A stretch of DNA of 31,191 bases from Agrobacterium fabrum (GTDB lineage: Bacteria; Pseudomonadota; Alphaproteobacteria; Rhizobiales; Rhizobiaceae): NCBI GenBank assembly GCA_003241215.1, contig QFOL01000013.1, forward strand, positions 1 through 31,191, given 5' to 3'. Shown piece by piece: positions 6,091 through 23,673 of the stretch; position 1 is the stretch's first letter, and each line of letters opens with the position of its first letter. The notes below the pieces were generated by a model. It was given only the letters and a program-made list of their open reading frames with translations. It was not told the origin of the DNA and searched no databases. Both the position numbers and the translations under genes were made by a program.

Positions 6091-6130
6091 GTAACAGTCA
6101 GCCATGCCAAGGGGCATCAAGGAGGTTGAA

Positions 6131-13788: not shown

Positions 13789-14988
13789 ATGAAGCTTGCA
13801 CTCAAGGACACACGAAATATCGGAGCCGCAAGAGCCAGTCAGTGGAGCTTCGAGCGCGGCCGCCGCGTCATCGGCCGGTCTCGCGATTGCGACTGGCAGA
13901 TCGACGACAATGAGCGGCGCGTTTCCAAGCTGCACTGCACGCTCAGCCGCGATGGCGAAGGTTTTACGATCCTTGACCAGAGCGCGAACGGCACGCTGGT
14001 CGATGGCCGTCTGCTGCTGGAAGGCGAAAGCGCGCGTCTCCGCGACGGTTCGCAGATCGATATTGGCGGGCAGGTTTTTCAGGTCGTCATCAGCGGCGAT
14101 GCCGAGCTGGATTTTTCCGATCCCGACGCGTCCCTGCGCATGAGTGACGAGCCGCTGACCATTTCGGCGATCCTTGCCGACATCGCCCCGAATGGCCGTT
14201 CGGCAGGCGGCGTGATGGGCAACACCGCCTCCGCCGACGAGTGGTCCGAAACATGGCGCGAGGGCGCGAAGCGGAAGGCGAAATCCATTTCACGAAATGT
14301 CGAGATCGGCTGGAGCGAACCGCCCGCAGCGCGTGGAATAGGCGCCGTTCTGCCTGATAACTGGGACGAGGAGCCGGTTGCAAGCAGCGAGCACGAACAT
14401 ACCGACGCACTGAACACGCCGGTCATGATCTCTCGTCCGGTTTCGGCCTCAGGTAACGAGGATTTCGACAGCGTCTTCCCGGAAACAGGCGAAGACCTGA
14501 CCCTGGAGAACCCATCAACTGCCGATGGTTCGACCGCGCAGGAGATCGGCGATCTTCTGACCGCGCTGGAGCAGGAAAGCGCCGATTGTCTGGCCATTCT
14601 CGACATTGAAGGCGAGCGCACCGGCCACGGTTCGTCAGCCTCCCTGAGCGAACGGGTGGAGACGCTCATCCGCCAGCAGCGGCGGCTCGCCGCCTCGCTT
14701 GAAACCCTGATCCACGGCTGCACGCAAAAGCTCGAGCCGAGGCTTCTCGAAGCCTCCGTCGATGCCGGCAACGATCTTCGTGCCAAAATCGAGCGCCGCG
14801 ACTGGCAGGGGCTGATCATGAAGACCGATTACTGGTCCACTTACAAAAAGCAATTTGAGGAAAACGGCCGTCCATTGCCGGTCAGGCAGTTCCTGCAGCG
14901 GGCAGCGCGCGGTGAGGCCGCGCCCACGCAGGAACCTGACGCGATAACGGCCGATGCAAAGGGGGTAAACAACCACGATGAGACATGA
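13789..14988 (+). CDS. fha: Fha, FHA-domain T6SS scaffold and phosphothreonine reader
   Basis: Fha is a cytoplasmic forkhead-associated protein that binds phosphorylated TssL and promotes T6SS assembly in A. tumefaciens. I use the ATG at 13789 (GAGGG 7 bases upstream) rather than 13783, which sits too close to the ribosome site; this gives 399 residues. The FHA domain is at about 5-105: VIGRSRDCDWQI holds Arg30, RVSKLHC holds Ser46 and His49, and SANGTLVDG holds Asn67. With this start, Arg30 and Ser46 fall at the numbers I recall for the pThr-binding residues of the C58 protein, supporting the choice. A low-complexity acidic linker (105-240) leads to a helical C-terminal T6SS Fha domain (about 245-375). 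Its end overlaps tssK by 11 bases. Confidence 0.94.
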   Translation: MKLALKDTRNIGAARASQWSFERGRRVIGRSRDCDWQIDDNERRVSKLHCTLSRDGEGFTILDQSANGTLVDGRLLLEGESARLRDGSQIDIGGQVFQVVISGDAELDFSDPDASLRMSDEPLTISAILADIAPNGRSAGGVMGNTASADEWSETWREGAKRKAKSISRNVEIGWSEPPAARGIGAVLPDNWDEEPVASSEHEHTDALNTPVMISRPVSASGNEDFDSVFPETGEDLTLENPSTADGSTAQEIGDLLTALEQESADCLAILDIEGERTGHGSSASLSERVETLIRQQRRLAASLETLIHGCTQKLEPRLLEASVDAGNDLRAKIERRDWQGLIMKTDYWSTYKKQFEENGRPLPVRQFLQRAARGEAAPTQEPDAITADAKGVNNHDET

Positions 14989-16318: not shown

Positions 16319-17817
16319 GCAAGGAAAAGCCCTCTTCCTGGCAGGATTTGCCGACGGTGGTCGAAATCACCGAGGAAAGCCGCCGACGCAACCAGAACGC
16401 CCGCAACATGGCGGCGATCCTCGAAGACATTGTCGAGACGGACGCGCCGGCCGGGCGGCCGAAGGCAGGCGCGGCCGCCATGCCGGTCGACCAGCTGCTC
16501 TCCGGTTTCCATTTCGGCGGCGGCGATCTGCCGACGCTCGTGCAATCGGCCGCTCCCCTTCTCAACCTCGCGCATCTCCTGCGCTTCAGCGATGCGGAGC
16601 CTGATACCGATCAGCTTCGCCGCGCCTGCGTTGAGGCGATCACCCGCTACGAGCGCGACCTCGCTTCCGCCCGCATCAGCCCCGAGCGGGCAAGGGCGGC
16701 GCATTATGTCGTCTGCGCCACGGTGGATGATGTGGTTCTGAGCAAACCCTGGGGCGTGCGGGCAGGCTGGGCGCGCTCCGGCCTTGTCTCCACCTTCCAC
16801 AATGATGTTACCGGCGGCGACCGGGTTTTCGACATTCTCGACCATTTCCATCAGTCACCCGGGGCCAACAAGGATCTGCTGCTGCTGATCTATCTGTGCC
16901 TGTCGCTGGCTTTCGAAGGGCGCACCCGCGTTTCGCCGAAGGGTGCGCTGGAGCTTTCCCGCATCCGCGACAGCCTCTACAAGACGCTGATCGGCCAATA
17001 CGGCACCTTCGAAAGGGAGCTTTCGCCGCACTGGAAAGGCGTCGAAGCCCGTCATACGCCATTGCGCACGATGGCGGCGCTGTGGACCCTGCTGTCCGTG
17101 ATGGCGCTTGCCTTCGCGCTTGGTTATCTCTTCTTCACGCTGTCGCTCAACAACGCATCCGATGTCACTTTCGAGAGGCTCGCCCATCTGCCGCCGAACG
17201 AGACGCCGAGCGTGCTGATCGCAAGCCCGCCCCAGCCACCGGCGCAGGTCGAAACGCCCAAGGTCGTGGAACCGCCGAAGACGGTGGAGCCACGGCAACC
17301 CTCCCGGCTTGAAAAGCTGATGGCCTTCCTTCAGCCGGAAGTCGAAAAGAAGCTTGTCACGCTGGCCGATGTGAACGGGCGGCTGCGCATTCGCATCAAT
17401 AATTCGGGCCTGTTCTCCACCGGCAGCGCCGATGTCAGCCCGCAGTTCCGCGATCTCATCCAGCGTATCGGCGGCGCGCTTGCGGCCGAAAAATTCCGCG
17501 CCGTCGTCATCGGCTATACCGATACCGTACCGATCAAGACGGTGGAATTTCCGTCCAACTGGCACCTTTCCGAAGCCCGCGCCAAGGCGGTCGGGGACAT
17601 TCTTTCACAATTCACCGGCCCGGAAGCGATCCTGACGGAAGGCCGTGCCGACAGCGACCCGATCGCCGACAACAAAACGGAGGAAGGCCGCCAGATCAAC
17701 CGCAGAACGGAAATCATGGTCCTGACCAATCCCGATGAAAAACTGAGTGACGCCGGCATTCTCTCGCCGACCATAGAGAACAGTTCGGGACAGCAGCCGC
17801 ACGAGGCACAGCCATGA
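16315..17817 (+). CDS. tssL: TssL (ImpK) with C-terminal OmpA-like domain, inner-membrane T6SS protein
   Basis: TssL is a bitopic inner-membrane protein of the TssJLM complex. The ATG at 16315 overlaps the tssK stop and gives 500 residues, MSKEKPSSWQDLPTVVEITE. With this start Thr14 lies in LPTVVEIT, the position reported to be phosphorylated by PpkA in A. tumefaciens; the longer in-frame start at 16300 would shift it. Order of parts: cytoplasmic DotU/IcmH domain (about 60-235), one membrane helix (252-277, TMAALWTLLSVMALAFALGY), a Pro-rich periplasmic linker (about 290-325), then an OmpA/peptidoglycan-binding domain with VIGYTDTVPI and SNWHLSEARAKAVGDIL near 395-435. The built-in OmpA domain anchors the complex to the cell wall. 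Confidence 0.96.
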   Translation: MSKEKPSSWQDLPTVVEITEESRRRNQNARNMAAILEDIVETDAPAGRPKAGAAAMPVDQLLSGFHFGGGDLPTLVQSAAPLLNLAHLLRFSDAEPDTDQLRRACVEAITRYERDLASARISPERARAAHYVVCATVDDVVLSKPWGVRAGWARSGLVSTFHNDVTGGDRVFDILDHFHQSPGANKDLLLLIYLCLSLAFEGRTRVSPKGALELSRIRDSLYKTLIGQYGTFERELSPHWKGVEARHTPLRTMAALWTLLSVMALAFALGYLFFTLSLNNASDVTFERLAHLPPNETPSVLIASPPQPPAQVETPKVVEPPKTVEPRQPSRLEKLMAFLQPEVEKKLVTLADVNGRLRIRINNSGLFSTGSADVSPQFRDLIQRIGGALAAEKFRAVVIGYTDTVPIKTVEFPSNWHLSEARAKAVGDILSQFTGPEAILTEGRADSDPIADNKTEEGRQINRRTEIMVLTNPDEKLSDAGILSPTIENSSGQQPHEAQP

Positions 17818-20800
17818 ATCCATTGAGCTATTTTTATACGATCCGATCCTATGTCGAGAGCTATGCCGCTCTCATCGGCCGCCGTTTCCTGTCGCTGTTA
17901 TGGGTGGTCGCGCTCTGCATCGTCATCTGGTTTTACGGCCATCTGGTCGCGCTGGGCGATTTCAAGCCCTTGGGAACGACACAGGCCCGGCTCATCGCCA
18001 TCGGCATCGTTCTCACCATATGGCTGATTTATATCGCCGTCACCATCTATCGCGGGCGCAAGCAGGACAAGGAACTCGTCGACAGTATCGAGCGCGAAGC
18101 CCTGGCCAACCGCCAGGCCGAAGTCGGCGAGATCCAGATGCGTCTCAAGGAAGCGCTGGCGCTGCTGCGGCGGGTCACGAAAAAGCGTTTTGGTTATATT
18201 TACGACCTTCCCTGGTACGTGATCTTCGGCGCACCCGGCTCCGGCAAGACGACGGCGCTCACCAATTCCGGCCTGCAATTTCCACTTGGAGATGCGCTGG
18301 GCGAAAACGCGGTAAAGGGCATCGGCGGCACGCGCAACTGCAACTGGTGGTTCGCCGATGAGGCGATCCTGATCGACACGGCAGGGCGCTACACGACCCA
18401 GGATGATCTCGACGGCTCGTCGAAAGCCGGATGGGAAGGCTTTCTCGGCCTTCTGAGGCGGTATCGCCGTTCGCAGCCGATCAACGGCGCATTGGTCACC
18501 CTGTCCATTCCCGATCTCCTCAGCCGCGATCCCGAGGAACAGCGGCAGGAACTGCGTTCCATCCGTCAGCGGCTGTCGGAACTCGATGAATATCTGCATG
18601 TGCGCGTTCCGGTTTATATCGTGCTGACCAAGGCCGATCTGCTGCATGGTTTCGTGGAATTTTTCGACGGTTTCAACAAGACCGATCGCCAGCAGGTATG
18701 GGGCACGACCTTCAAGCTGGATGAGAGTTACTCCGCCGAGAACCTGCCACAACGCCTGATAGAAGAGTTCGAACTGCTGCAACAGCGGGTCGATGCGATG
18801 CTGATCGAGCGCCTGCAGCAGGAGCAGAATGCCGAAACGCGCGGCCGCATCTTCCGTTTCCCCGCCGAACTTGCGCGGTTGAAAGACCGGCTCCATGAGG
18901 CCCTGACCGAACTTTGTGCACGGTCCCCGCTGATCGAAGCGCCGCTTTTGCGTGGCGTTTATCTCGCTTCGGGAACGCAGCCGGAAACGGAAAGGTCTCC
19001 CGCAGCATCCAGAACCCGCCGAAGCTATTTCCTGTCGCGGCTGTTCAAGGATGTCATCTTCCCCGAAGCCGCGCTGGTGATGCGCGACAAGCGCCTTTCC
19101 GGACGGCAATTGCTGGTGCGGCGCATCGCCTATGGTGTTTCGGCCGCCGCGGTCGCCATCGTCTTCACCGGCTGGATTTTCACCTATTTTGCCAATACGC
19201 AGGCGCTTGCCGAAGCGGATCGCAAACTTGGCGCTTATGAACAGCTCGTTCAGGGCATTCCCGTGCGCGATGTTTCGGACGCCGATTTTCTCCGCATCCT
19301 TCCGGCGCTCGACAATCTGCGCGACGTCAATTCCGGCTTTGCCCGCGAGAGAGTGTGGAATGTCAGCTTCGGGCTCGATCAGGAAGACAAGATCGCCGGA
19401 CGGCAGCGTGACGCCTATCAGCGCGCACTCAATGCCCTGCTCCTGCCGCGCATGATCGTGCAGCTCCAGAAACAGCTCAAGGACGAAAAGGATATCACGC
19501 GCACCTTCAATTCGCTGAAGCTCTATGGAATGCTTGGCGGCATGGGTGCGCTAGACCCCGATTTCCTGACCGTGCAGACACACCAGATGTTCGCATCCCT
19601 CTATCCCGGCGATGGAAGGGCGGCCGCCAGAGAAGCGCTCGACCAACATGCGAAAGCGCTGGCGGACGGCGTGCTCGCCCCGATTGAGCTCGATGCGCGG
19701 CTCATCGCAACTGCCCGTGAAACCATCCGCAATCAGGCTGTCGGTACGCGCGCCTATGATATTCTCGCCGGTCTTCCACAGGCGCGGGAACTGATGGAAT
19801 GGACACCAGCCACGGCCTTCGGCCCGCTGGGAGAGCGTGCCTTCGAGCGGCGCAGCAAAGCGCCGATGGCGGAAGGCATCGAAGGTCTTTTCACGGCGGA
19901 GGGATATCGCAGCGTCGTCATTCCGCAGGTCGCCCATGCGGCGCGCATCGCACTTTCCGAAGGGTGGGTACGCGGTTCCGATGATGCCATAAGGGGTGCC
20001 ACGGTCGAGCAGGTGGCACAGGCCGCGCTGCAAATCTATTTTGATCGCTTTGAGAAGAAATGGGCCGATACGCTGGCCGACCTTCGGGTCAAGCCGTCCC
20101 AGACCCTTGGCGACGCGGTGGAAACAACCCGCGCGCTTGCCAATGAACGCAATATCGTGGTGGAGGCTGCCAGGTCGATCGCGGAGGCGACCGATCTGCG
20201 CCCCGGAGCAAACCCCGCCGCCCTCGCCTCCGCCGCTGAAGGCGACGCGACCGCAGCCGTTCTGGCCGCCACGGTAAACGCGGCCGATCCCTATGCGAGA
20301 CTGCGCGACATGCTGGCGGCGAAAGGCGCGGCCACAACGGGCGAGCAGGCCAATGGCGGCAAGGCCGGCGGTTCGCCATCGGAACAATTGCTCGCACATT
20401 TCAAGATGCTGAACGAGCAGCTTGCCCGCTCGGCGACCACCTCCGATGAAGTCGCCAGAGTGTTCGACGTGGATAGTCAACTCACCAAGGCCAATCAGGA
20501 TCTGTTGCAGCAGGCCCGTGAGTTGCCGGCACCCCTCGATGTGTGGGTGGCGGGTGTGGCGGCAGATGTCGGCTCGCTTGCGGTCAAATCCGCCCGCAGC
20601 CGCATTGCCGAACTCTGGGCGGCCGATGCGGCATCCCTGTGCTCTTCCATCGTGACCGGGCGTTATCCTTTCGACAGGTCGTCTTCCCGCGATGTCGCCA
20701 TCGCGGATTTCACCCGTCTCTTCGGGCCAGCAGGGGTTTTCCAGTCCTTCTTCAAACAGCGAATGGAAGCCTTTGTCGACAAGACCACCAACCCCTGGAG

Positions 20801-21293
20801 CTGGAAAGGCACTTTCGGCGCCGCCGGCATTCCAAGCAGCGCCGTCGCCCAGTTCGAAAATGCCGACAAGATTTCGCGCGCATTTTTCCCGAATGGCAGC
20901 GAGACGCCGGCGGTGTCGATCAATGTCAAACCCGTTTCGCTCACCAATGCCTCCAGCGCGGTGATGCTGGAAATCGAAGGCGAGCGGGTGGTTTATTATC
21001 ACGGGCCCATTCAGGCGAAATCGATCACCTGGCCCTCGCGTGAAAACACGGCGAGCCTGTCGCGCATCGCCTTCCAGCCGGGCGGCTGGCAGCAAGCGAA
21101 AACCGAAAACGGCGACTGGTCGCCATTCCGGCTGTTCGACGGCGCCGACATCGAAAACCAGTCGGGCGACCTGCTGCGGGTGCGGTTTGCGAATGGCGCG
21201 CAGGCTGCCGAATTCGATATTCAGTTCGGCTCGGTTCTCAACCCGTTCAGGCTGGACGCCATCGCCGGCTTTGCCTGCCCCGCGCAATTTTAG
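17814..21293 (+). CDS. tssM: TssM (IcmF/ImpL), inner-membrane T6SS core protein
   Basis: TssM spans the inner membrane, and its large periplasmic part reaches toward the outer membrane to form the central channel of the membrane complex. The 1159-residue length is typical. Two N-terminal helices lie at about 25-45 and 60-80, a cytoplasmic NTPase-like domain follows with Walker A GAPGSGKT (139-146) and ILIDTAGRY, and a third helix lies at about 437-460 (VSAAAVAIVFTGWIFTYF). The rest is periplasmic IcmF-related domains, with a C-terminal beta domain ending FRLDAIAGFACPAQF. The intact Walker A suits A. tumefaciens TssM, for which ATP binding and hydrolysis have been reported. The ATG overlaps the tssL stop. 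Confidence 0.97.
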   Translation: MNPLSYFYTIRSYVESYAALIGRRFLSLLWVVALCIVIWFYGHLVALGDFKPLGTTQARLIAIGIVLTIWLIYIAVTIYRGRKQDKELVDSIEREALANRQAEVGEIQMRLKEALALLRRVTKKRFGYIYDLPWYVIFGAPGSGKTTALTNSGLQFPLGDALGENAVKGIGGTRNCNWWFADEAILIDTAGRYTTQDDLDGSSKAGWEGFLGLLRRYRRSQPINGALVTLSIPDLLSRDPEEQRQELRSIRQRLSELDEYLHVRVPVYIVLTKADLLHGFVEFFDGFNKTDRQQVWGTTFKLDESYSAENLPQRLIEEFELLQQRVDAMLIERLQQEQNAETRGRIFRFPAELARLKDRLHEALTELCARSPLIEAPLLRGVYLASGTQPETERSPAASRTRRSYFLSRLFKDVIFPEAALVMRDKRLSGRQLLVRRIAYGVSAAAVAIVFTGWIFTYFANTQALAEADRKLGAYEQLVQGIPVRDVSDADFLRILPALDNLRDVNSGFARERVWNVSFGLDQEDKIAGRQRDAYQRALNALLLPRMIVQLQKQLKDEKDITRTFNSLKLYGMLGGMGALDPDFLTVQTHQMFASLYPGDGRAAAREALDQHAKALADGVLAPIELDARLIATARETIRNQAVGTRAYDILAGLPQARELMEWTPATAFGPLGERAFERRSKAPMAEGIEGLFTAEGYRSVVIPQVAHAARIALSEGWVRGSDDAIRGATVEQVAQAALQIYFDRFEKKWADTLADLRVKPSQTLGDAVETTRALANERNIVVEAARSIAEATDLRPGANPAALASAAEGDATAAVLAATVNAADPYARLRDMLAAKGAATTGEQANGGKAGGSPSEQLLAHFKMLNEQLARSATTSDEVARVFDVDSQLTKANQDLLQQARELPAPLDVWVAGVAADVGSLAVKSARSRIAELWAADAASLCSSIVTGRYPFDRSSSRDVAIADFTRLFGPAGVFQSFFKQRMEAFVDKTTNPWSWKGTFGAAGIPSSAVAQFENADKISRAFFPNGSETPAVSINVKPVSLTNASSAVMLEIEGERVVYYHGPIQAKSITWPSRENTASLSRIAFQPGGWQQAKTENGDWSPFRLFDGADIENQSGDLLRVRFANGAQAAEFDIQFGSVLNPFRLDAIAGFACPAQF

Positions 21294-21317
21294 CGGCGGG
21301 GCGGCGCACCGTTTTTT
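21277..21317 (+). terminator. Possible attenuator at the tssM end
   Basis: GCCCCGC (21277-21283) can pair with GCGGGGC (21296-21302) around the tssM stop codon, and a TTTTTT run lies at 21312-21317. The run starts 9 bases beyond the stem, further than in a standard terminator, so this would be weak. It could lower expression of tagF-pppA and ppkA relative to tssM. Confidence 0.3.
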
Positions 21318-21330
21318 AAGGAGGGGATCT

Positions 21331-21375
21331 ATGATGAAAGCAACGACGAAAAGCACCGTGGTCAATAACGACTGA
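21331..21375 (+). CDS. 14-residue leader ORF coupled to tagF-pppA
   Basis: A mini-ORF encodes MMKATTKSTVVNND. It is preceded by TAAGGAGG (21317-21324), a full eight-base match to the 16S anti-Shine-Dalgarno sequence, 6 bases before the ATG. Its TGA overlaps the ATG of tagF-pppA (TGATG). The downstream gene has no ribosome site of its own, so its translation probably depends on ribosomes finishing this peptide. The peptide is basic and hydrophilic and matches nothing I recognise. I infer a translational-coupling leader; a functional micropeptide is less likely. That it is translated is well supported by the site quality but not proven. Confidence 0.6.
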   Translation: MMKATTKSTVVNND

Positions 21376-22781
21376 TGGCCAATCAGGCATCGAGGCCCAC
21401 GGAAACCGCAGCGGAAAGCGACCGCATCGGTTTCTTCGGCAAGGTCCCCAGCCATGGCGACTTCATCTCCGACGGGCTTGAACGGGAGCTGATCGGGACG
21501 TTTGACGACTGGCTGCGATCCGGCCTGCACGCCTGCGCGGACCTGTTTTCGGGCCAATGGCCCGCAATATTTACGTCATCGCCGCCCATACGCTTCATCA
21601 TCGAAAGCGGCATATGGGGCAACAGCGCCTATGCCGGCGTGCTGGTGCCCAGCGCAGACCGGGTGGGGCGTAAATATCCGCTTGCCATCATTGCCCAGCT
21701 CAATAGCTTCCGGAAACATCCGCGAACGCTCTATCTCGACGACACCTGGTTCATGGCCGCCGAGGCGCTGGCCGAAACATCCATGACGGGCGATTTCGAC
21801 ATGTCCCGGTTTAACACCTCCGTCAAGAAACTGCGCCTGCCGAAACCACGGGAAGAGGATGACGCGCCGGAAATGGTGCGCAGCCGCGCACCGACCAGCC
21901 TCTGGTGGCGCATCGATCCCGCCAGCCGCCGCGCCCGCGGTCTCAAATTCGACGGCAAACCGAAAGCTGCCGATTTCCTGCGCCTCTTCAGCGACATGGC
22001 AGGCAAGGGCGAAGAAGACGGCTCGACACCCGTACAGGCTCAGGAAAGTGCGAAACACAAAACTCCGCCCGTGATGACGCCCGCGCCCGCACCGCCAACC
22101 GAACAGCCGTCATCGGTCATCTACAGCTATGCCACGCACCCGGGAACACGGCTCTCCCTGAACGCGGATTCGCTCTTCGTTTCCCAGAGCCCTGCCCTCT
22201 TCGCCATGGCAGATGGACAGGGAGACACGCACAGCGCCGTGGAAGCCGCACGTCTGGCTACAAATATTCTTGCCGAGACGCCCGATGCCGAAAACCCCGA
22301 GGTGATGGCGCAGCAGATCAGGGGAAAACTCGGCACCGTCAACAGCCTGCTTCTTTCCCGGCAAGCCATGGGCGCCGACGGCAGGCCGATGGCGAGCGTC
22401 ATCATTGCCTCCATTATCGGCCGCCGGCTGAGTGTCCTGTGGTCCGGCGACGCGCGCGCCTATCTCCTGAAAAACGGAACCATGCATCAGCTTTCGCGCG
22501 ATCACGTCGTTGTCGGCATGAAAAGGCAGCTCGCGCAATGTGTCGGCCTTTCCCAGCAGTTCCGGCCGGATATCGTCGGGGAAGACTGGGGGTCGCAGGA
22601 CAGGCTGCTCCTGTGCAGCTATCCGCTGGTGCAAATCCTGAAGGAGCGGGCCATTGCCGAGATCGTCGGCAACACCCCGATCAAGGATTGCGCCAGCGCC
22701 CTGATCCAGGAAGCGCTGATCGAGGACGCACGCGAGAATGTCAGCGCCATCGTGATTGGAAACCGGCTTGAGCAAGGGTAA
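21375..22781 (+). CDS. tagF-pppA: TagF-PppA fusion, post-translational T6SS repressor with PP2C-like domain
   Basis: This 468-residue fusion joins TagF (about 17-210: IGFFGKVPSHGDFISDGL, SGIWGNSAYAGVLVPS, FMAAEALAETSM) to a PP2C-type phosphatase-like PppA domain (about 247-465) through a Pro-rich linker (230-246). Such fusions repress T6SS in Agrobacterium, with TagF reported to bind Fha. PP2C landmarks are present (RLSLNADS 259-266, MADGQGD 278-284, SGDARAYL 357-364), but several metal-binding positions differ: the usual SDG appears as SYP (415-417) and the final DN as EN (454-455). Phosphatase activity is therefore doubtful. The ATG at 21375 lacks a ribosome site and overlaps the stop of a 14-codon leader. 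It overlaps ppkA downstream. Confidence 0.93.
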   Translation: MANQASRPTETAAESDRIGFFGKVPSHGDFISDGLERELIGTFDDWLRSGLHACADLFSGQWPAIFTSSPPIRFIIESGIWGNSAYAGVLVPSADRVGRKYPLAIIAQLNSFRKHPRTLYLDDTWFMAAEALAETSMTGDFDMSRFNTSVKKLRLPKPREEDDAPEMVRSRAPTSLWWRIDPASRRARGLKFDGKPKAADFLRLFSDMAGKGEEDGSTPVQAQESAKHKTPPVMTPAPAPPTEQPSSVIYSYATHPGTRLSLNADSLFVSQSPALFAMADGQGDTHSAVEAARLATNILAETPDAENPEVMAQQIRGKLGTVNSLLLSRQAMGADGRPMASVIIASIIGRRLSVLWSGDARAYLLKNGTMHQLSRDHVVVGMKRQLAQCVGLSQQFRPDIVGEDWGSQDRLLLCSYPLVQILKERAIAEIVGNTPIKDCASALIQEALIEDARENVSAIVIGNRLEQG

Positions 22782-23673
22782 ACAATCCGGCGACGGGCCT
22801 GCCTACCCGCAGGTCGCCGAGCGCTTTTCCGATCTGTGGCAAACCATCCGCCATGACGGCACGCGGGAAAGGCCTGCCAAAGAACAGAAAGACCTGATCG
22901 ATCAGGTCCGAAATGCGCTGGACCGGAAAATCTCGCATTTTTCCGATGCGAAACCCGGCTGGATCGCTGACAGTTTTGCCCTTGAACGGATTGCCTACGA
23001 AAGCGAAAACACGCTGCTGCTGCAGGTGCGGCACCGCGATCTTGGCTCCCTTCACGCCCTGAAAACCACGCCGCCGGCGTTGAAAAACGACGCGGTGCTG
23101 CTGCAAAGATTACGCGAGGAGGCGCAACTCGGCCTGACATTGCGCCATCCTTGCCTGGTGGAAACATCGGCGCTGCTGAGACTGGCCGATGGCCGACCGG
23201 GCCTGTTACAGCCATGGTTTCCGCAATCATTGGCGTCGCTTGCATCACAGCGGCCGGTTAGCGCGCCGCAAGCCACCACAATCCTTCGCCGCCTGCTGGA
23301 AGGGCTGAGCGCCATGCATGCACGGGGATATGTCCACTGCGATGTCACGCCAGCCAATATTCTACTGGAGGACGGCGATTTCGAAACGGGCAGACTTGGC
23401 GATTTCGGCATCGCGCTGGAGATCGGCCAAAAACACGCGGATCGGGGCATGAGCTTTGCCGCCTCGCGCGAATTTGCAGCGCCGGAACGGATGCGGGACG
23501 CAACCGCAAAGCCGGATCAGGATATATTCTCCGTGGGGCGGCTTGCCCGGCGGCTTATCGCTACGGATGAGATGCGAACAACGCAAAGGCTGGCGGATTT
23601 TGCGGACGCCTGTTGCCAGGACGAACCCGCGTCGCGGCCGCAATCGGCAATGGAAGCGCTACAGCTTCTGTAG
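22768..23673 (+). CDS. ppkA: PpkA, short cytoplasmic Ser/Thr protein kinase of the T6SS
   Basis: PpkA phosphorylates TssL (Thr14 in A. tumefaciens) to trigger Fha binding and secretion. I place the start at TTG 22768 (301 residues; GGAAA 5 bases upstream); TTG at 22756 would add four residues, and no ATG is available. Hanks kinase motifs by this numbering: Lys99 in LHALKT, Glu118 in REEAQ, catalytic loop HCDVTPAN (190-197, Asp192 and Asn197 intact), DFG 212-214, and the APE-like AAPER near 240. The usual Gly-rich loop is not recognisable and the catalytic-loop Lys is Thr. Unlike the Pseudomonas protein it has no membrane helix or periplasmic sensor domain. It is the last gene of the imp operon and overlaps tagF-pppA. 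Confidence 0.92.
   Translation: MSKGKQSGDGPAYPQVAERFSDLWQTIRHDGTRERPAKEQKDLIDQVRNALDRKISHFSDAKPGWIADSFALERIAYESENTLLLQVRHRDLGSLHALKTTPPALKNDAVLLQRLREEAQLGLTLRHPCLVETSALLRLADGRPGLLQPWFPQSLASLASQRPVSAPQATTILRRLLEGLSAMHARGYVHCDVTPANILLEDGDFETGRLGDFGIALEIGQKHADRGMSFAASREFAAPERMRDATAKPDQDIFSVGRLARRLIATDEMRTTQRLADFADACCQDEPASRPQSAMEALQLL

Follow-up and report, generated by a model that had tools for sequence, protein, structure and literature searches.

A short leader reading frame with a strong Shine-Dalgarno sequence probably relays ribosomes to the type VI secretion repressor gene tagF-pppA of Agrobacterium

In a stretch of 31,191 nucleotides (nt) of Agrobacterium fabrum contig QFOL01000013.1 (the window, which was analyzed at its full length), the type VI secretion system (T6SS) repressor gene tagF-pppA is preceded by a short open reading frame (ORF) of 14 codons, the mini-ORF. 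Comparison of this junction across the genus makes it very probable that the mini-ORF is a coupled leader ORF, a translational relay that gives ribosomes to tagF-pppA. Its Shine-Dalgarno (SD) sequence is TAAGGAGG (21317..21324, plus strand, as are the other parts of the leader and the genes around it). The mini-ORF itself, 14 codons and a TGA, encodes MMKATTKSTVVNND and spans 21331..21375, with the ATG at 21331, a second in-frame ATG at 21334, and the TGA at 21373-21375. The last base of the stop is the first base of the tagF-pppA start codon (ATG 21375-21377), so that stop and start form the motif TGATG (21373..21377) with a one-base overlap. The gene tagF-pppA (21375..22781) encodes 468 amino acids, with the repressor part and a fused PP2C phosphatase domain (Pfam TagF_N and PP2C). 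The leader lies within the 81 nt spacer (21294..21374) that separates tagF-pppA from the upstream gene tssM (17814..21293, Pfam IcmF domains, stop codon TAG at 21291-21293). An earlier note on this DNA had described the SD, the 14 codons and the TGATG overlap, and its coordinates are exact.

The two ribosome sites differ greatly in predicted strength. SD strength was expressed as the duplex energy with the 16S rRNA tail in kcal/mol. The energy is -11.6 kcal/mol for the mini-ORF versus -2.7 kcal/mol for the own site of tagF-pppA, which agrees with the statement of the earlier note that the repressor gene has no site of its own. For comparison, 676 genes were called in 800 kb of one relative with a crude, self-written gene caller; the resulting distribution leans to the strong side because the caller chose starts by SD strength. 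It has a median of -6.1, and 13 genes reach -11.6 or stronger, while 56 have sites of -2.7 or weaker. Across the 28 junctions of the genus that are introduced below, the computed tagF site ranges from 0.7 to -4.7 and is weaker than the median in every case; four of these sites are at -4.1 or stronger, and the weakest quarter of the 676 genes lies above -4.3. The earlier note had also called the mini-ORF site the best of the window. This is correct among the scored gene starts of the plus strand, where the next best SD has -10.3 (at 14978), but not for the bare sequence, because the stretches at about 25807 and about 10133 are stronger; AAGGAGG is found as well at the plus-strand positions 6119 and 13632. 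Therefore, the case is not rested on SD strength alone. Local folding predicts that the start region of the mini-ORF is slightly more open than that of tagF (mean unpaired fraction 0.49 versus 0.42, in this direction in 18 of 28 junctions, p 0.02), which fits a relay and is no proof of it.

The conservation of the arrangement was analyzed in 39 genomes of the genus. A match to TagF-PppA was found in 28 of them, one of which was dropped (G319, only a remote PP2C match with E 1e-4), and the remaining 27 species genomes together with the window yielded 28 distinct tssM/tagF junctions. Fourteen named loci duplicate junctions of these 27 genomes and add none; among the named relatives, A. leguminum MOPV5 has the most similar TagF-PppA (97%). 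The complete device, consisting of SD, start codon, reading frame and stop/start overlap, is retained in 28 of 28 junctions. In each of them, the in-frame ATG preceded by the strongest SD has an energy between -8.1 and -12.7. It is located at position -41 (10 junctions), -44 (9 junctions) or -47 (9 junctions) relative to the tagF ATG, and therefore the lengths of the mini-ORFs, 13, 14 or 15 codons, differ by whole codons. The stop is always TGA or TAA and its last base is always the A of the tagF ATG (TGATG or TAATG). An additional in-frame ATG is present at -50 in five junctions, and some junctions have in-frame ATGs with weaker SDs farther upstream or downstream. The nearest relative (L001/L031) has lost the first of the window's two ATGs and preserves the frame with the second, and in L006 the spacer is longer (134 nt) and the device is still there. 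None of the 27 genomes of the genus combined a disrupted mini-ORF with an intact T6SS. In the 14 junctions that were aligned, the SD core is partly invariant.

The amino acid sequence of the encoded peptide follows a different pattern. The ratio of the nonsynonymous to the synonymous proportion of differences (pN/pS), calculated over the same 11 pairs, is 1.07 for the mini-ORF, 0.17 for the whole TagF-PppA, and 0.19 for codons 2-16 of TagF-PppA. The mini-ORF value is based on 16.5 synonymous and 54.5 nonsynonymous differences. The first, second and third codon positions diverge by 0.53, 0.64 and 0.49 in the mini-ORF and by 0.24, 0.17 and 0.51 in tagF, and beyond the start methionine no residues common to the peptides of different clades are visible. 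Thus, the whole device is kept in all junctions while the peptide drifts, and this comparison strongly supports the proposal of the earlier note that production of the repressor would depend on translation of the mini-ORF. The mini-ORF is probably under selection for its SD, start, frame and stop rather than for its peptide product, which is probably irrelevant.

To quantify the expectation without selection, neutral evolution of the spacer was simulated on a tree built from third positions of the codons in tagF and at the end of tssM. Each simulation started from a single present-day sequence at the root, allowed only substitutions, and took the transition/transversion ratio to be 2.5. The complete device was never retained in all 28 leaves in 1,200 neutral runs (two roots, three rates); the best result was 21 of 28, at quarter rate. 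The 12 interior codons of the mini-ORF contain no in-frame stop (0/336), versus 11/308 and 15/308 in the other two forward frames. When only the interior was simulated with fixed ends (three roots, 1,000 runs each), zero interior stops were obtained in 16, 8 and 1 of 1,000 neutral runs at full rate, and in 103, 38 and 16 of 1,000 at half rate.

Several points weigh against a dependence of tagF-pppA on the mini-ORF, or lessen the force of these numbers. The 28 junctions are related and thus not independent, and the deep third-position branches of the tree are long. The stop/start overlap, taken alone, was retained in all leaves in 6 of the 1,200 neutral runs. Stops are rather scarce in the three reverse frames as well (5/336, 6/308 and 10/308), and at quarter rate zero interior stops were obtained in 361, 189 and 108 of 1,000 neutral runs, so that openness of the interior is by itself modest evidence for selection. 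The pS of the mini-ORF is 0.17, lower than that of tagF (0.32), and because of this low value its pN/pS rests on few synonymous changes. Lastly, the downstream genes of coupled pairs are described as typically having an SD of their own (PMC6728339), and that of tagF-pppA is weak.

The mechanism that we propose is a ribosome relay. Ribosomes would load at the strong SD of the mini-ORF, translate the peptide, and terminate at UGAUG, where the ribosome itself or its 30S subunit would restart on tagF-pppA (termination-reinitiation). The own initiation site of tagF-pppA would be too weak for efficient ribosome loading, and the gene would be served by the mini-ORF. The computed features of a coupled leader, namely, a short ORF with SD and start, an overlapping stop and a weak downstream site, are present in 28 of 28 junctions. 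Coupled translation has been described with both a -1 spacing and short relay ORFs (PMC12548453, PMC6728339): closely spaced gene pairs are enriched in certain spacings, -1 (TGATG/TAATG) among them, and it has been proposed that ribosome delivery can be the sole role of a short upstream ORF (PMC12548453). In other genera, tagF may be fed by ribosomes leaving tssM or by its own SD. In the genus of the window tssM and tagF are about 80 nt apart, and the mini-ORF would supply tagF-pppA independently of tssM translation.

The arrangement seems to end at the border of the genus. The sample from outside comprised 29 loci at 28 distinct places (L118 is identical to L119) and covered part of the family and part of the G290 genus, with the remote matches L023-L030 set aside. 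A mini-ORF that has an SD of -8 or stronger and ends at the tagF start was found at none of these 28 places. The earlier note had suggested aligning the junction across relatives: frame and overlap are conserved in the genus, but the peptide is not, and the device does not extend to the outside places. In 12 of 13 loci of other genera (L008-L020), at most 15 nt separate the tssM stop from the first candidate start of tagF, and therefore tssM ribosomes could feed tagF there. In the G290 genus (L007 and L107-L119, 13 distinct places) this distance is 5-101 nt, and the own SD of tagF has -5.8 to -8.6 at 11 of the 13 places and is weaker in L117 and L118. One exception was found in a different genus, where a 5-codon ATG ORF (MSERI, SD -5.6) precedes tagF with an ATGA overlap (L016); it may be a frameshift remnant. 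By eye, MSERI is similar to the beginning of TagF in other genera. L009, L015 and L117 contain only TTG-started ORFs with SDs of -2.2 or weaker. In L110-L114 and L116 the spacer between tssM and tagF is about 100 nt long and contains, by eye, an inverted repeat past the tssM stop, followed by a tagF SD of -5.8.

Two screens addressed how often the arrangement occurs. A screen of both strands of the window, made without gene calls, found the mini-ORF site alone. A similar screen of the 800 kb of the relative with its 676 genes used the gene calls; this stretch does not contain tagF, and the window served as positive control. It revealed six candidates, five of which are outside other called genes, in four different genes. 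The candidate at 613343 matches numerically (SD -11.9, own site 0.0), but the called gene starts 48 nt upstream of the overlapped codon, and thus the short ORF is located inside that called gene. At about 239529 of G327 C1 (L078/L079) another candidate, an 11-codon ORF with an SD of -8.4 and a TGATG overlap, is followed by a 309-codon gene with an own site of -5.8.

Other explanations of the mini-ORF are less compatible with these results. That a random SD, ATG and stop happen to lie ahead of an ordinary gene start is hardly credible, in view of the retention in all 28 distinct junctions, the 1,200 neutral simulations without a single case, and the window screen. It is just as implausible that the mini-ORF encodes the actual beginning of TagF-PppA and is connected to it by a -1 shift or by stop suppression, or that a tagF start farther upstream in the same frame is used. 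A minor frameshifted fusion has been reported for uPPE2-PPE2 (PMC11260477), and the tagF frame of several relatives continues without a stop far upstream of its ATG. However, a TAA three codons before the ATG closes the frame in the window and in three near relatives, and an upstream in-frame tagF start is present in only 4 of 28 junctions, in none of them with an SD of -8 or stronger. The bases preceding the mini-ORF stop are not conserved, and therefore no kept slippery site is visible. In addition, the protein of strain C58 is given as residues 1-471 with the TagF domain starting at residue 11 (PMC5995506), a length that fits the overlapping ATG. The size and position of the mini-ORF are like those of leader peptides, and the slightly more open start region would also be in line with an attenuator, in which expression of the downstream gene would be controlled by particular codons or by stalling of the nascent peptide. 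Such an attenuator is nevertheless very improbable, because the peptides of different clades share neither residues nor a codon run, a pN/pS of 1.07 is contrary to a conserved peptide or regulatory codons, the alignment of 14 of the 28 junctions yielded three predicted pairs without covariation and thus no conserved RNA structure, and a scan of 20800-22000 found no terminator-like site.

More weight is due to a regulated version of the coupled leader, in which a trans-acting factor would control translation of the mini-ORF and thereby switch the dose of TagF-PppA independently of the other genes in the T6SS operon. Such control could come from a small RNA that pairs with GGAGGGG, from an RNA-binding protein, or from changed initiation or recycling. 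We consider this unlikely, although there are precedents in iraD ORF27 with CsrA (PMC5574718) and uof-fur with RyhB (PMC11550727). The partial invariance of the SD core could be read in its favor, but a conserved SD is expected of any relay. Hcp secretion in C58 is abolished when TagF-PppA is overproduced (PMC3953482, PMC5995506); on the other hand, it was not significantly altered when tagF-pppA was deleted (PMC3953482), and therefore a lower dose may matter little under those conditions. The main texts of both papers (PMC3953482, PMC5995506) contain neither "start codon" nor "ribosome". CsrA was found in only one of the 39 genomes of the genus (G314), which gave no tagF-pppA match; the genome of the window is outside this set. 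CsrA control is thus unlikely, because csrA is absent from the 27 genomes with tagF-pppA. Furthermore, no Rfam family was matched in the window, where small RNAs were searched for with Rfam only. With no conserved RNA structure and no CsrA in the carrier genomes, the regulatory leader considered in the earlier note is not supported: common residues between clades, a conserved RNA structure in the 14 aligned junctions, and a regulator were all not found.

The relay has several counterparts among known systems. One is ORF-11 of the attI1 site of class 1 integrons, a short ORF that has a good SD and feeds a gene without an initiation region of its own (PMC8876359). Its SD and ATG matter and amino acid changes have only a slight effect (PMC8876359). 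However, ORF-11 is part of a recombination site and serves any inserted cassette, whereas the mini-ORF precedes one operon gene with a genus-wide one-base overlap and is flanked by T6SS genes. In Escherichia coli, ORF27 upstream of iraD is a short leader ORF with a stop that overlaps the downstream start, and coupling has been shown for it (PMC5574718); iraD has its own, sequestered SD and is under CsrA control, in contrast to the weak SD of tagF-pppA and the lack of CsrA in the genomes that carry it. The leader ORF uof precedes the regulator gene fur and affects its expression (PMC11550727), but uof is a RyhB target with rare codons, and no small RNA is known for the mini-ORF. In Mycobacterium tuberculosis, ppe2 lacks an SD and depends on the overlapping upstream ORF uPPE2, mainly via termination-reinitiation (PMC11260477); there the overlap is AUGA and a B12 riboswitch is involved, here it is UGAUG without an Rfam match in the window. 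The short ORF mgtQ between mgtC and mgtB of Salmonella also lies within an operon and promotes translation of the next gene (PMC8092293), but it is reported to depend on acidic residues and stem-loops, whereas the mini-ORF has neither conserved residues nor a conserved structure. Judged by these likenesses, the mini-ORF is a further case of a known kind of coupled leader ORF (attI1 ORF-11, iraD ORF27, uof-fur, uPPE2). In the open-access literature the leader is undescribed in the titles and abstracts among the matches listed, which is not proof of its absence in print.

The window contains a T6SS operon of Agrobacterium, in which eight proteins were scanned and assigned by Pfam: VipB, TssF, FHA, VasE, DotU with OmpA, IcmF, TagF with PP2C, and a protein kinase. 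The latter is encoded by ppkA (22768..23673, Pfam Pkinase), the start codon of which is putative. The candidate TTG at 22768 lies within the last codons of tagF-pppA, and the sequence there varies among relatives. The two genes are possibly another coupled pair. As ppkA apparently starts inside the tagF-pppA end, the relay may feed the kinase gene as well, via this overlap. At the other side of the leader, a GC-rich hairpin that spans the tssM stop is predicted at 21272-21317, with a run of six T three bases downstream. By eye, the same T run is present only in L001, L032 and L037, and the terminator scan does not call the hairpin and T run. No sigma-70 consensus promoter was found near the tssM end (20800-22000).

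The product of tagF-pppA is a brake on the bacteria-killing injection machine of Agrobacterium, the T6SS, and the mini-ORF is a site at which the dose of this repressor could be set. A relay would explain how tagF-pppA is translated despite its poor SD. A more far-reaching idea, which we regard as speculative, is that the genus has uncoupled its T6SS repressor from tssM and that a dedicated, peptide-independent relay sets the ratio of brake to machine, perhaps switched by a small RNA or another factor at GGAGGGG. If true, this would represent a translational layer of T6SS control that has no counterpart among the literature matches listed. For practical work, an expression construct that starts at the tagF-pppA ATG would omit the leader. 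The mini-ORF offers a clear example from nature of an ORF that is apparently kept for its translation and not for its product, with a peptide that drifts at the codon level across the genus. It raises the possibility that other short "leader peptides", too, serve only to relay ribosomes.
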